Assembly: GCF_015752315.1 (NCBI RefSeq)
Contig: NZ_JADOVJ010000001.1
Location: forward strand, 868,001 to 932,000
From: Nocardioides luteus
GTDB lineage: Bacteria > Actinomycetota > Actinomycetes > Propionibacteriales > Nocardioidaceae
Direction of reading: 5' to 3'
DNA length: 64,000 nucleotides
Made by a program: the position numbers and the translations under genes. The notes under the pieces were generated by a model that saw only the letters and a program-made list of their open reading frames with translations, did not search any database and was not told where the DNA came from. Of this stretch, positions 9,271 through 16,654 are shown piece after piece; position 1 is the first letter of the stretch, and every line of letters starts with the position of its first letter.

Positions 9271-10017
9271 ATGAGCCTTCGAGCAACCGTGCCTGATCGT
9301 CTCGGGCTCCGCTTCGACCTCGCCAACGCCTGGCACGACCTGGTCGTGGGCGGTCGCTGCGTCGGCTGCGACCGGCCGGGCCGCCTGCTCTGCCGCGACT
9401 GCCACGCCGCGCTCCCGGACCGGGCCGGGGCGAGCCCGCCGAGCCCGGCGCCGCCGGGCATCGTCCCGGCCTTCGCCGCGGGACCCTACGAGGGCACCCT
9501 CAAGCAGTTCGTCATCGGGCTCAAGGAGCGCCAGCTCCTCGGTCTGCGCCGGCCGCTGGCCGGTCTGCTCGCGCTCTCCGTCCTCGAGGCGATGGCGCAG
9601 ACCGGCGCCGGTCCCACGGTCCTGGTGCCGGTCCCGTCGCGGCCGGCGTCGGTGCGAGAGCGCGGCCTGGACAGCACCGCGGCCATCACCCGCCGGGCAG
9701 CCGCGATGCTGAGGCAGCACGGGCTCGGCGTACGCCACCACCGGCTGCTGCGCACCAGACCGGGCGTCGCGGACCAGGCCGGCCTCGACTCACGGCAGCG
9801 GCAGGCCAACCTGGCCGGGTCGATCACCTGCCCGGCGTCCGGCATCCGGACACTTGCCAGAACGATCCCGCGGGCGAGGTTCATCGTCTGCGACGACGTG
9901 ATCACCACCGGCGCGACCGCGCGGGAGGCTCAACGAGCGCTGGAATCGGTCGGTCTGGAGGTGACGGCGATCGCAACCGTGGCGGCCACCCAGCGTCGGT
10001 CTCGCGTTCAAATGTAG
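9271..10017 (+). CDS. ComF family phosphoribosyltransferase-like protein
   Basis: 248 aa. The N-terminal zinc-ribbon shows CVGCDRPGRLLCRDC (two CxxC pairs). The C-terminal type-I phosphoribosyltransferase fold contains the PRPP loop FIVCDDVITTGATA. Homologues include ComFC, needed for DNA uptake in competent bacteria, but this gene is conserved between lpqB and hpf in non-competent actinobacteria, where its role is unclear. A membrane-free cytoplasmic protein is predicted. Confidence 0.85.
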   Translation: MSLRATVPDRLGLRFDLANAWHDLVVGGRCVGCDRPGRLLCRDCHAALPDRAGASPPSPAPPGIVPAFAAGPYEGTLKQFVIGLKERQLLGLRRPLAGLLALSVLEAMAQTGAGPTVLVPVPSRPASVRERGLDSTAAITRRAAAMLRQHGLGVRHHRLLRTRPGVADQAGLDSRQRQANLAGSITCPASGIRTLARTIPRARFIVCDDVITTGATAREAQRALESVGLEVTAIATVAATQRRSRVQM

Positions 10018-10083
10018 GAAACCACCATGTAATTCTGTTGAAGGCCTTTCATGGGGAACATCGGCGAACTACCGTCACTACAT

Positions 10084-10341
10084 GGAGTCCGCCTGGGTCC
10101 GTGGTTGCGTCGCAGGGAGGTCCGCACTGCGGGCATCCGAGCGGCAAGCCGATGCCAGTCGCAGGCGAAACGGTCCACGTAACCCTGGAGACAGGGGATC
10201 ACGGTGCGGCTTAGAGATAAGTCCTGCCCCTGCCCTCCCGTCAGATACGGGAACCAGCAGGGAGAAGGTGGAGTGGCACCAAGCTGCTAAGCCTCTGCAG
10301 GCGGTTGTGGGGTCGAAGACCAGGTCGGCCGGGCGGACTCC
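10084..10341 (+). ncRNA. Large structured RNA upstream of hpf (raiA-motif candidate)
   Basis: A 390-nt gap precedes hpf. GGAGTCCGCCTGG (10084-10096) pairs with CCGGGCGGACTCC (10329-10341), a 13-bp closing helix with one G-U. Inside are CTGCG-GGCATC...GATGCC-agt-CGCAG, GGCTTA-GAGA-TAAGTC with a GNRA tetraloop, and CCCTGC...CCCGT-cagat-ACGGG...GCAGGG. A competing or pseudoknot pairing is possible between GGCTTAG and CTAAGCC. A conserved large ncRNA called the raiA motif is known upstream of raiA/hpf genes in Firmicutes and Actinobacteria. Position and complexity fit; the family name is my inference. A further hairpin (CCCGG-aGGTCA...TGACC-at-CCGGG, about 10346-10376) lies before the hpf RBS. 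Confidence 0.7.
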
Positions 10342-10408
10342 GTACCCCGGAGGTCACATGCGCTGACCATCCGGGATCCCGCCAACCCCGAAACACCGGG
10401 AGGTACCC

Positions 10409-11050
10409 ATGGAAGTTGTCGTCACGGCCCGCAACGCCGAGGTCTCAGACCGCTATCGCGCTCACGTAGCAGAGAAGCTCGCGAAGCTCGAGAAGCACGA
10501 CCACCGGATCATCAGAATCAACGTGGAGGTCGACAACGAGCCCAACCCGCGCCAGCACAAGGGCGCCGTACACGTCGAGCTCACTGCGTACTCGAAGGGT
10601 CCGGTCATCCGGGCCGAGGCGTGTGCCGAGGACAAGATGGGGGCGCTGGACCTGGCTGTCGACAAGATGGCTTCCCAGATGCGCCGCGCCGCTGACCGCC
10701 GCAGGGTTCACCGCGGCCGTCGTACGCCGGTTTCCGTGGGACAGGCACTGGCGGGCATCGAGCCCGACGGCCTGGCCACGACGTCCGAGTCGGAGCAGTT
10801 CGAGGAGGAGGAGATCCGGGAGCACCAGGTCGGACCGATCACCGTGACGGGGGAGGGGCCCTTGGTGGTCCGGGAGAAGACGCACACCGCGGAGCCGATG
10901 ACGCTCGACCAGGCGCTCTACGAGATGGAGCTGGTCGGCCACGACTTCTACCTCTACATCGACAAGGACTCGACGCGGCCCTCGGTCGTCTACCGCCGGA
11001 GGGGATACGACTACGGGGTGATCGCGCTCAACCGCGCAGACCTCGTCTGA
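10409..11050 (+). CDS. hpf: Ribosome hibernation-promoting factor, long form
   Basis: 213 aa. The N-terminal S30AE domain covers about 1-105 (VVVTARNAEVSDRYRAHVAEKL, in pieces TARNAEVSDR and HVAEKL). A variable linker rich in E is followed by the C-terminal dimerisation domain (MTLDQALYEMELVGHDFYLY, SVVYRRRGYDYGVIAL). Long HPF dimerises 70S ribosomes into inactive 100S particles in stationary phase or stress. RBS GGGAGG lies 5 nt before ATG 10409. The leader contains the structured RNA described above. A hairpin terminator follows. Confidence 0.95.
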   Translation: MEVVVTARNAEVSDRYRAHVAEKLAKLEKHDHRIIRINVEVDNEPNPRQHKGAVHVELTAYSKGPVIRAEACAEDKMGALDLAVDKMASQMRRAADRRRVHRGRRTPVSVGQALAGIEPDGLATTSESEQFEEEEIREHQVGPITVTGEGPLVVREKTHTAEPMTLDQALYEMELVGHDFYLYIDKDSTRPSVVYRRRGYDYGVIALNRADLV

Positions 11051-11071
11051 GGGCTGTCGCCTAAGCACGTC

Positions 11072-11112
11072 GGCCGGGACTTTTCCATCCCTCAGATGGA
11101 TGAGTCCCGGCC
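11072..11112 (+). terminator. Hairpin after hpf
   Basis: GGCCGGGAC (11072-11080) and GTCCCGGCC (11104-11112) form the outer stem. An inner stem TCCATC-cctca-GATGGA continues it. There is no 3' T-run. It is placed between hpf and the next promoter. Confidence 0.55.
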
Positions 11113-11152
11113 ATTCCCTCATGTGTCATGGGATACGTGCCATGATGCGTTC

Positions 11153-11833
11153 GTGTCATCTACATCTGGTGCCGATCGTGAGCCGGTCCGCGTCTTGGTT
11201 GTCGACGACCAGGAGCTCTTCCGGAGAGGTCTGGTCGCGCTGCTGGCGAGCGAGCCCGGGATCGAGGTGATCGGTGAGGCGACCAACGGCATCGAGGGCA
11301 CCGAGCGAGCCGCGGCTTCGGCTCCGGACGTCGTGCTGCTCGACGTACGCATGCCCAAGCAGACCGGGCTCGAGGCCTGCGTCGCGATCAAGGAGGCCGT
11401 TCCCTCGGCCAACATCATCATGCTGACCGTCTCTGACGAGGAGGCCGACCTCTACGACGCGGTCAAGGCCGGCGCGATGGGCTACCTCCTCAAGGACTCC
11501 TCGATCGACCAGGTCGCCCAGGCGATCCGGGTGGTCGCCGACGGCCAGTCCCTGATCAGCCCCTCCATGGCGGTCAAGCTGATGGAGGAGTTCAAGCAGA
11601 TGTCCCGGCCGGACCGCTCCCCGGTCCCCGGCCCCAAGCTCACCGACCGCGAGCTCGAGGTCCTCGGCCTGGTCGCCAAGGGACTCAACAACCGCGAGAT
11701 CGCCAAGCGGCTGTTCATCTCCGAGAACACCGTCAAGAACCACGTACGCAACATCCTGGAGAAGCTCCAGGCCCACTCGCGCATGGAGGCGGTCATGTAC
11801 GCCGTGCGCCAGAAGCTCCTCAACGTCGACTGA
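11153..11833 (+). CDS. NarL/LuxR-family response regulator
   Basis: 226 aa from GTG 11153, which lies 6-7 nt after CATGAT (leaderless pattern); an in-frame ATG at 11096 would fall upstream of that box. The receiver has VDDQ, phosphoacceptor Asp near 64 (VVLLDVRMPKQTGLEA) and Lys in YLLKDSS. The C-terminal LuxR helix-turn-helix is LTDREREVLGLVAKGLNNREIA-like, with NNREIAKRLFISENTVKNHV. No partner kinase is adjacent, so it is an orphan regulator with unknown targets. Confidence 0.92.
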   Translation: MSSTSGADREPVRVLVVDDQELFRRGLVALLASEPGIEVIGEATNGIEGTERAAASAPDVVLLDVRMPKQTGLEACVAIKEAVPSANIIMLTVSDEEADLYDAVKAGAMGYLLKDSSIDQVAQAIRVVADGQSLISPSMAVKLMEEFKQMSRPDRSPVPGPKLTDRELEVLGLVAKGLNNREIAKRLFISENTVKNHVRNILEKLQAHSRMEAVMYAVRQKLLNVD

Positions 11834-11940
11834 GCTGTTAGGTTGACGCCAGCGTCGCGTGCCGGTGACAGACCGTGTCAGGCATGGAGGCGCCGGACAC
11901 GAAGGAACACGACTGATGTTGTCGTCCCCTTCGCCCTCAC

Positions 11941-12411
11941 GTGACTGAGGGCGAGAAGACCAGGCTGATCGCCTGGGCAGATGAGATGCGGCGGGTCCAC
12001 GACCGGCTGCGCACGGCACTGCGAGTGACGCAGGAGGCCATCGCCGCGGGAGATCCCGCCGAACCCGCGGCCCGTGACCTGCTGCTGTTCTGCCACGGGT
12101 TCTGCGCGGCCCTGACCGGCCACCACGAGGGCGAGGACCGGGAGCTCTTCCCGGTGATCGCCCGAGCCCGTCCCGAGCTGCGCGAGACGATCCGCAAGCT
12201 GGAGCAGGACCACTCCATGATCGGCCACCTCCTCGGCGGCCTCCAGGCCGCCGTCGACCGGGCCGCCACCCCCGAGGAGCTCGGCAAGCACCTCGACGGC
12301 GTCTCGGCGATCATGGAGTCCCACTTCCGCTTCGAGGAGCGCCGGCTCCTGAGCGTGCTCGGCACCCTCAGGCTCGACGCGGACGTCGGCGAGGTCTTCG
12401 GCCCGCTCTGA
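11941..12411 (+). CDS. Hemerythrin domain protein
   Basis: 156 aa helical bundle. Candidate iron ligands are visible in order: the VHDRL His near 20, the H in LLFCHGF, HHEGEDRELFP (HxxxE-type), a DHSMIGH pair, and HFRFEERR near the C-terminus. This resembles the metal-binding pattern of bacterial hemerythrin-like proteins, which bind di-iron and sense or carry oxygen, NO or iron. It starts at GTG 11941 without an obvious RBS. A perfect inverted-repeat terminator follows. Confidence 0.85.
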   Translation: MTEGEKTRLIAWADEMRRVHDRLRTALRVTQEAIAAGDPAEPAARDLLLFCHGFCAALTGHHEGEDRELFPVIARARPELRETIRKLEQDHSMIGHLLGGLQAAVDRAATPEELGKHLDGVSAIMESHFRFEERRLLSVLGTLRLDADVGEVFGPL

Positions 12412-12428
12412 CCCGCGATCGGGCGATG

Positions 12429-12465
12429 GAGCCGGTTCCGGACGGGAGTTGTCCGGAACCGGCTC
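12429..12465 (+). terminator. Perfect inverted-repeat terminator
   Basis: GAGCCGGTTCCGGAC (12429-12443) and GTCCGGAACCGGCTC (12451-12465) form a perfect 15-bp stem with loop GGGAGTT. It runs directly into TAGAGT, the -10 box of the next gene, so terminator and promoter abut. Confidence 0.75.
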
Positions 12466-12478
12466 TAGAGTCGGACTC

Positions 12479-13690
12479 GTGCCCCGCTCTCAGACACTCA
12501 GCCGCTCGCAGGCCCGCCGGATCGCGCTGGCGGCGCAGGGCTTCGCCGACAAGCCCCACACCACCCCCACGATGCGTACGTTCCAGCGCACGCTGGAGCG
12601 CACCGGGGTCCTCCAGGTCGACTCGGTCAACGTCCTGCAGCGCGCGCACTACATGCCGCTCTACAGCCGGATGGGGGCGTACGACACCGGGCTCCTGCAC
12701 CGCGCGAGCAGCGGGCACCGGGACCGGCGGATGGTCGAGTACTGGGCGCACGTGCAGGCGTTCATGCCGGTCGAGCTGTGGCCGCACATGCAGTGGCGGA
12801 TGGACCACTACCGCGCCCAGAAGGGCTCCAAGTGGTGGGGGAGCGTGCCGGACGGGATGAAGGAGAAGGTGCTCGCGCTGGTGGCCGAGCAGGGGGCGCT
12901 CACCGCGCGCGAGGCGGCCAAGGCGCTCGACGACGCCGGCCCGCAGACCAAGGACCACTGGGGCTGGAACTGGTCCGACTCGCGCAAGACCCTCGACATC
13001 CTCTACATGTTCGGCGAGCTGGCGATCTCGCACCGCAACGACCAGTTCGAGGTCGCCTACGACCTGCCCGAGCGGGTCATCCCGCGGGTCCACCTCGACG
13101 CGCCGACGCCGTCGAGGGAGGAGGCCCACCGCGAGCTCGTACGCCGCGCCGCGAGGTCCCACGGGGTCGGCACCGCCAAGGACATCGCCGACTACTTCCG
13201 GATGCGCGTGGACGACACGACACGCGCGCTGAACGAGCTCATCGACGCCGGCGAGGTGGAGCCGGTGACGGTCGAGGGCATCCGCAAGCAGGCGTACCTC
13301 TTCTCCGGGTCCCGCCTGCCGCGCCGTATCGATGCCCGTGCGCTGCTGAGCCCGTTCGACCCGCTGGTCTGGGAGCGCGAGCGCACCGAGGCCCTCTTCG
13401 ACTTCTTCTACCGGATCGAGATCTACACGCCGGCGCCGAAACGGATCCACGGCTACTACGTGCTCCCGTTCCTCCTCGGGGAGCACATCGTCGGCCGCGT
13501 CGACCTCAAGGCCGACCGCAAGAGCGGAATCCTCCAGGTCAAGGGCGCGTTCACCGAGCCGCACGCCCCCGTGGAGACCGCCGTGGAGCTGGCTGCCGAG
13601 CTCGAGCGGCTCGCCGGCTGGCTGGGTCTGGAGGCCATCGCGGTCGATCCGAAGGGCGACCTGGCGCCGCTCCTTGCGCCGTTGGTGTGA
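12479..13690 (+). CDS. YcaQ-type winged-helix protein (putative crosslink-repair glycosylase)
   Basis: 403 aa from GTG 12479, 7 nt after TAGAGT (leaderless). It belongs to the winged-helix DUF1006/HTH_42 family, whose members E. coli YcaQ and Streptomyces AlkZ are DNA glycosylases that unhook alkyl lesions and interstrand crosslinks. The N-terminal stretch LQVDSVNVLQRAHYMPLYSR contains the Q-x-D form of the catalytic motif as I know it for the family. C-terminal strands VGRVDLKADRKSGILQVKGAF are also typical. The substrate is not predictable from sequence alone. Confidence 0.82.
   Translation: MPRSQTLSRSQARRIALAAQGFADKPHTTPTMRTFQRTLERTGVLQVDSVNVLQRAHYMPLYSRMGAYDTGLLHRASSGHRDRRMVEYWAHVQAFMPVELWPHMQWRMDHYRAQKGSKWWGSVPDGMKEKVLALVAEQGALTAREAAKALDDAGPQTKDHWGWNWSDSRKTLDILYMFGELAISHRNDQFEVAYDLPERVIPRVHLDAPTPSREEAHRELVRRAARSHGVGTAKDIADYFRMRVDDTTRALNELIDAGEVEPVTVEGIRKQAYLFSGSRLPRRIDARALLSPFDPLVWERERTEALFDFFYRIEIYTPAPKRIHGYYVLPFLLGEHIVGRVDLKADRKSGILQVKGAFTEPHAPVETAVELAAELERLAGWLGLEAIAVDPKGDLAPLLAPLV

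Positions 13691-13756: not shown

Positions 13757-16654
<2,898 letters not shown>

Follow-up and report, generated by a model that had tools for sequence, protein, structure and literature searches.

A raiA-motif RNA in front of hpf

The large structured RNA located in front of the hpf gene of Nocardioides luteus raises the question of whether it belongs to the raiA family, as an earlier note had proposed from the letters of the DNA, and, if so, whether it is only a noncoding RNA. Within the window (the whole stretch of 64,000 nucleotides that was analyzed), the covariance-model search that the note had suggested as a check detected a single Rfam match above the gathering score, namely RF03072 (raiA; E 1.5e-32; Table 1), which is also the sole match to this family in the entire 5.8-Mb genome. 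Judged from this match, the stretch 5' of hpf is a true raiA-motif RNA, as proposed, and its membership in the family is ordinary. The RNA is flanked by a comF-like gene and hpf; a comF upstream and a raiA/hpf gene downstream are common, albeit not universal, neighbors of RF03072 RNAs, and both are present in the window. Relatives of comF are found at all 91 Actinomycetes raiA loci and at 21 of the 30 loci from other classes, and hpf is located downstream of the RNA in 88 of the 91 Actinomycetes loci. With strict filters, Infernal detected raiA RNAs in 44 of 58 genomes of relatives, in 37 of 147 genomes from the order, in 101 of 394 from the class and in 133 of 396 from the phylum.

Farther downstream (11096-13690), genes for a LuxR-type response regulator, a hemerythrin-domain protein and an AlkZ-like protein separate hpf from an open reading frame (ORF) at 13757-16654 that was taken for secA by eye. 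Actinomycete-type raiA RNAs also appeared in two metagenome-assembled genomes (MAGs) that are perhaps mislabeled bins, one titled Bifidobacterium breve (L125, confirmed by Rfam) and the other Spirochaetaceae (L147, detected by DNA pattern only).

Table 1. Features of the raiA-hpf locus in window coordinates
Feature	Position	Strand	Basis or remark
comF-like gene, 5' of the RNA	9271..10017	+	phosphoribosyltransferase domain, E 1.3e-5, just under the Pfam cut-off
-35-like hexamer TTTCAT	10047..10052	+	17 nt before the -10 box; weak
-10 box TACCGT (TANNNT)	10070..10075	+	6 nt before the ATG
Predicted transcription start and leaderless ATG	10082..10084	+	G of the ATG base-paired in P1
Putative leaderless upstream ORF, 94 codons and TGA	10082..10366	+	spans the entire raiA RNA; stop 42 nt upstream of hpf
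raiA RNA (RF03072)	10088..10337	+	133 bits vs gathering score 101.3; sole genome match
P1, 5' strand, 13 bp	10084..10096	+	covariation
P1b/P1c, 5' strand	10099..10106	+	partners 10326-10328 and 10318-10322; 354/354 and 586/590 cells paired
P2 region, length varying in threes	10107..10147	+	inserted compared with the Rfam consensus; length divisible by 3 in 88/91
P3 and pk-1 5' strand (10157-10163)	10148..10174	+	P3a 484/484, P3b 363/363, pk-1 843/847 cells paired
P5, variable hairpin	10183..10199	+	length and frame-class comparison
pk-2 (10202-10203 with 10314-10315) and pk-1 3' strand (10205-10211)	10202..10211	+	
P7 and P8, variable hairpins	10226..10297	+	
P1, 3' strand	10329..10341	+	covariation
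hpf Shine-Dalgarno GGGAGG	10398..10403	+	sequence
hpf, long form	10409..11050	+	domains Ribosomal_S30AE and Ribosom_S30AE_C

Covariation was analyzed in an alignment of 121 loci, 3 rows of which have a misplaced 5' end. The 13-bp helix closing 258 nt that the note had described (P1) is conserved with many two-sided changes: 1467 of the 1543 cells are paired (1143 of 1153 within Actinomycetes), compared with 518 to 773 of 1543 for five slid control pairings, and compensatory changes are present in Nocardioides as well as in other Actinomycetes. Covariation also extends to the two pseudoknots of the cryo-EM structure (PMC11751092; mapped on the window by us): the 7 bp of pk-1 comprise several pair types, and the two pairs of pk-2 form in 120 and 114 of the 121 loci, the first being C-G in 90 and T-A in 30. 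In folding, the strand 10082-10343 surpasses 199 of 200 shuffles (z -3.62).

Other elements of the fold proposed in the note did not hold up. The GNRA-capped stem (GAGA, 10214-10217) has a GNRA loop in only 7 of the 121 loci, and the supposed second structured part that includes the hpf ribosome-binding site (10338-10408) folds unremarkably (z -0.75 for 10338-10430), the spacers from the RNA to hpf varying in length and sequence even among Nocardioides. The suggested pseudoknot between GGCTTAG (10208-10214) and CTAAGCC (the true place of which is 10287-10293) was rejected: although 579 of its 847 cells are paired, more than in slid controls (190-424), its bases overlap those of the real pk-1, and positions 10213/10288, 10210/10291 and 10211/10290 pair in only 4, 52 and 70 of the 121 loci, respectively. 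The stretch that the note delimited begins 2 nt 3' of the predicted transcription start, A10082, and a start codon at the 5' end together with an open frame through the RNA was overlooked.

A promoter-like box and a start codon at the edge of P1

The conservation of these elements was assessed in a set of 194 distinct Actinomycetes loci, in which three 5' ends had been moved and to which 117 loci had been added using a DNA pattern blind to frame and start codon; all 18 pattern-found loci that were tested are members of RF03072. A TANNNT box starts 9 to 15 nt before the start codon in all 194 loci, exactly 12 nt before it in 149, compared with 0 to 4 of 191 loci at six other offsets, and among the 91 RNA-aligned Actinomycetes loci it is found at the identical base in 80. 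At the -35-like position, 67 of these 91 loci have T at -41 and 70 have T at -40. The codon at the 5' end of the RNA is ATG in 181 loci, GTG in 12 and CAG in one, that is, of the two elements of a leaderless-type start, the -10 box is present in 194 and RTG in 193 of the 194 loci. The conserved ATG begins 2 nt before P1; its A is the expected transcription start and its G (G10084) pairs with 10341 in all 91 loci (GC in 86, GT in 5).

We infer that transcription starts at A10082. A sigma-70 promoter scan of 9950-11200 found no promoter with its consensus, which is a generic one, and no transcription start-site map for Nocardioides was present among the literature matches listed. In mycobacteria, mRNAs beginning with AUG or GUG are translated whereas other codons failed in this position (PMC4633059), and the ATG and GTG starts seen here fit this restriction.

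A frame free of stops through the RNA

The frame set by the 5' start codon is free of stops across the RNA in 188 of the 194 loci, compared with 16 and 7 for the other two plus frames, which hold on average 2.3 and 2.8 stops. The loci are related and hence not independent; after clustering at 80% identity, the frame is open in 83 of 88 (the others in 10 and 6), and at 70% identity, in 24 of 28 (the others in 3 and 2). It is open in all 53 loci from the window's family (almost every one from the window's genus), in 8 of 8 of a second family (f4) and in 27 of 30 of other Actinomycetes; the corresponding counts for the other plus frames are 3 and 0, 1 and 0, and 0 and 2. None of the 30 copies from other classes of the phylum is open in any plus frame. 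The same division is apparent in three conserved cores, each of which holds a stop mostly in one frame: the used frame avoids the stop-bearing frames in 91, 91 and 89 of the 91 Actinomycetes loci, and they are hit in 4, 23 and 12 of the 30 loci of other classes. An antisense ORF as the cause of the open frame was rejected, given that no minus frame, unlike the used plus frame, is open in nearly all loci: among the 53 loci of the window's family, the three minus frames are open in 17, 5 and 6, among the 8 of f4 in 5, 1 and 2, and among the 30 of other Actinomycetes in 4, 15 and 1.

The frame is closed in 6 of the 194 loci, 3 of which have hpf downstream. Further loci from deep families are open in 15 of 20 cases and closed in 5, at least 4 of the 20 repeating loci of the pattern set, so that these counts are not summed with the 194. 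Four of the five closed deep loci have hpf (three with an RTG start and one with CTG) and one lacks both hpf and the start codon: L284, L285 and L299 retain the start codon and have a stop within the RNA and hpf downstream, whereas L292 and L300 have lost the start codon, L300 being the locus without hpf. Codon-position G+C is weakly gene-like in P2 of the window's family (0.77/0.67/0.83) and shows no gene pattern in the other segments; as support, it is weak and was set aside.

Length variation preserves the frame and not the peptide

The P2 region is 21 to 63 nt long in 88 of the 91 loci, with differences that are always multiples of 3; the exceptions are 29 nt (L019), 5 nt (L088) and 50 nt (L101). 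In L019, the frame stays open, and no other of the 91 loci has a P5 of the same frame class. One of the P2 gap classes would bring in a stop; it is represented in none of the 117 pattern-found loci (109, 0 and 8 in the three classes) and, with a looser anchor, in one of all 194 (182, 1 and 11). When nearest disjoint pairs were taken from the hpf tree, 26 of 91 differed in P2 length, 19 of these 26 by a multiple of 3 (p 4e-5); with a narrower anchor that drops six loci, the count is 20 of 26 in 89 pairs (p 7e-6), both p values treating the pairs as independent. Chimeras made by randomly shuffling the variable segments among loci are open in 64.8 of 91 cases on average (maximum 73 in 300 shuffles) compared with the 88 observed, and within the window's family, in 47.1 on average (maximum 52) compared with 53 of 53. 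The other variable segments are less constrained individually: the length of P5 is a multiple of 3 in 40 of the 53 loci of the window's family, that is, it is freer than P2, and P7 and P8 hop between open frames.

The peptide sequence itself, by comparison of the translations, is not fixed. The pseudoknot loop is read in two frames, yielding SRCGLEVS or ITVRLRSK depending on the species, and the last conserved block is read in all three frames outside the window's family. The QADASRRRNGPRK block is in the same frame in 88 of the 91 loci. A database search with the ORF peptide yielded 15 relatives at E <= 0.001, of which two bear the name hypothetical protein; the peptide matched no Pfam family.

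Relationship between the open frame and hpf

In the used frame, 122 of 188 loci have their first stop after the RNA no more than 45 nt from the hpf start, compared with 51 and 61 in the other frames (48, 21 and 26 of 85 after clustering at 80%). Of the open ORFs followed by hpf (185), 92 have their stop 10-80 nt in front of hpf and 13 within 9 nt of it, 36 extend 10-60 nt beyond its start, and the remaining 44 stop outside the range from 80 nt before to 60 nt after the start. The possibility that the ORF is an N-terminal extension of hpf was rejected: before final deduplication, only 7 of the 83 ORFs that run past the start were in the hpf frame. Four untruncated loci of the 194 lack hpf within approximately 1.5 kb, of which three are closed (L097, L099, L125) and one is open (L075); thus, the frame is closed in 3 of the 4 loci without hpf and in 3 of 188 with it (Fisher 7e-5), a comparison of small numbers. 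This link between the loss of hpf and the loss of the frame is weakened by the four closed deep-family loci that have hpf.

Among 41 selected Actinomycetes that lack a raiA match, 32 carry, within 260 nt of hpf, a TANNNT box that precedes an RTG by 5-8 nt, compared with 0 and 2 of 41 in control sets, and the more specific combination of TANCGT, 6 nt and ATG is found in 20 of the 41 and in none of the loci in two control sets. All six raiA-less genomes of the window's genus that were examined retain a leaderless-type start, with ORFs of 18-75 codons that end 26-67 nt before hpf. Given this retention in raiA-less relatives, the promoter in front of the RNA is probably hpf's own and the RNA probably lies within the hpf leader. 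Terminator-like sites occur within 120 nt after the RNA in 21 of 188 loci, compared with 17 of 30 in other classes, and between the RNA and hpf in 18 of 188.

Several raiA-less relatives have peculiarities of their own. In the window's genus (L243-L248), the TANCGT box and a leaderless ATGGA start persist before hpf, and L245 and L247 retain the GGGTCCGTGGTTGCG piece of P1 as a remnant in the absence of the raiA RNA. In the family f3 (L250, L255-L261), an ORF of the leaderless type with 47-50 codons is located approximately 170-180 nt before hpf, ends 26-30 nt before it in 8 of 8 loci and contains recurring Cys and Trp codons. In another genus of the window's family (g9), a -10 box and a leaderless-type ORF of 1-3 codons are found 36-55 nt before hpf in 7 of 11 loci (L252, L262, L264, L266, L267, L273, L274).

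A tentative model and the alternatives

HPF idles 70S ribosomes. Leaderless starts, for their part, are made mostly by 70S ribosomes (PMC9031893). Combining these two properties, we propose a switch between translation and folding: a leaderless upstream ORF would run through the raiA leader, and its translation would compete with the folding of the RNA to control hpf, a model that we consider moderately likely. The raiA-motif RNA would be the 5' leader of the hpf mRNA; transcription from A10082 would yield an mRNA that begins with AUG, at which a 70S ribosome could start without a Shine-Dalgarno sequence and translate through the RNA to the stop near the hpf start. Given that the G of the AUG is paired in P1 at all 91 loci, closure of P1 should be incompatible with an initiating ribosome, so that the folded and translated forms would be mutually exclusive. 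The second strand of P1 is made approximately 245 nt after the first, and a ribosome could thus load before the helix closes. With ribosomes loaded, the RNA would be unfolded, translation would end beside hpf, and hpf translation would be helped by coupling; with no ribosome loaded, the RNA would fold, its own start codon would be closed and hpf would rely on its own Shine-Dalgarno sequence. HPF, by idling 70S ribosomes, would feed back on the leader. Translation and its competition with folding are inferred here from sequence comparison, and which way hpf is affected is a guess and the weakest step of the model: in Mycobacterium tuberculosis, such upstream ORFs act in both directions, one being required for its downstream gene and another being suppressive (PMC11260477).

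One alternative is an ordinary raiA/ModT RNA, separate, stable and acting in trans as in Clostridia, with the open frame being a by-product of high G+C and shared ancestry. The clear membership in RF03072, the trans complementation reported for Clostridia (PMC11706538), the weak codon-position signal and the closed frames in a quarter of the deep-family loci are all in line with this explanation, but it does not readily account for the stops in the other two frames, the start codon at one fixed place, the P2 indels in threes on the hpf tree or the empty stop-giving P2 class, and we consider it quite unlikely. It is also conceivable, although unlikely, that the ORF matters only for keeping a ribosome behind RNA polymerase and so preventing Rho termination in the long hpf leader. 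Such a role would explain selection against stops rather than for a fixed peptide, as well as the stops near hpf; tight folding of the leader, however, should itself hinder Rho, and a short ORF is kept in relatives even where the leader is short.

Were the peptide (a basic protein that has 94 residues in the window and differs in length at other loci) the product that matters, the constant frame of the QADASRRRNGPRK block and the database relatives would be expected, but hardly the reading of the pseudoknot loop in two frames and of the last block in three, nor the lack of a Pfam family, making this explanation very unlikely. Most improbable, in our view, is a cis-acting riboswitch for a ligand of unspecified kind. 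The Rfam type of the family (Cis-reg; riboswitch), the probable hpf promoter before the RNA and the spacer of at most 60 nt to hpf in 58 of 188 loci agree with it; against it, a generic-consensus scan detected no terminator in 9950-11200, comparison of the spacers and folding of 10338-10430 revealed no conserved expression platform, and the RNA acts in trans in Clostridia (PMC11706538).

Comparison with known systems and implications

The description of the raiA motif in the earlier note as located before raiA/hpf stands, whereas its "unknown function" is in part dated: knock-out phenotypes in Clostridia and cryo-EM structures have been described (PMC11706538, PMC11751092). The clostridial RNA, ModT, works in trans and has effects on sporulation and c-di-GMP, and in C. 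difficile, it has its own promoter and two termination sites (PMC11706538). The structures were obtained with the C. acetobutylicum RNA (PMC11751092, PMC12286853), and the functional work in PMC11706538 and a study cited there concerns Clostridia. An ortholog host, Acetohalobium arabaticum, is labeled Actinomycetota in PMC11706538 but belongs to Bacillota in the NCBI taxonomy; accordingly, no actinobacterial copy seems to have been tested in that study. The RNA described here resembles the clostridial raiA/ModT in model score, P1, P3, pk-1, pk-2 and the upstream comF, and differs in the P2 insertion in threes, the start codon at the predicted 5' end, the stop-free frame, and the downstream hpf with few terminators in between.

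With the leaderless upstream ORFs of mycobacteria (PMC4633059), the putative ORF shares an RTG at the 5' end, a stop that is often at the start of the next gene and, in one mycobacterial example, a peptide sequence that is not fixed; as described there, the mycobacterial ORFs are not read through a conserved structured RNA family, unlike the one considered here. The upstream ORFs of the M. tuberculosis B12 riboswitches before metE and ppe2 (PMC11260477) are likewise located in structured leaders, that of metE within the B12 aptamer, and are translated and alter the gene behind them, as is proposed for the present ORF. They are short and have Shine-Dalgarno motifs, whereas the ORF described here would start at the predicted first base and span the whole RNA. 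No report joining a raiA RNA with a leaderless or upstream ORF is present among the literature matches listed; the text of PMC11706538 does not contain the terms leaderless, open reading frame or peptide, and that of PMC11751092 does not contain leaderless, open reading frame or uORF. The ORF through the raiA RNA is thus the new part, as far as these searches show.

More generally, the locus is a warning that a genuine covariance-model match need not preclude a genuine ORF in the same place. The start codon and the protected frame through the raiA RNA lead to a cis hypothesis tied to ribosome hibernation that is testable by a few point mutations. As a plausible but still tentative extension, across much of the class Actinomycetes the raiA RNA may be not a noncoding RNA but a two-state leader, the whole body of which is a leaderless ORF, folded when no ribosome starts on it and unfolded when one does, and which would thereby inform hpf, whose product idles 70S ribosomes, about the supply of active ones.
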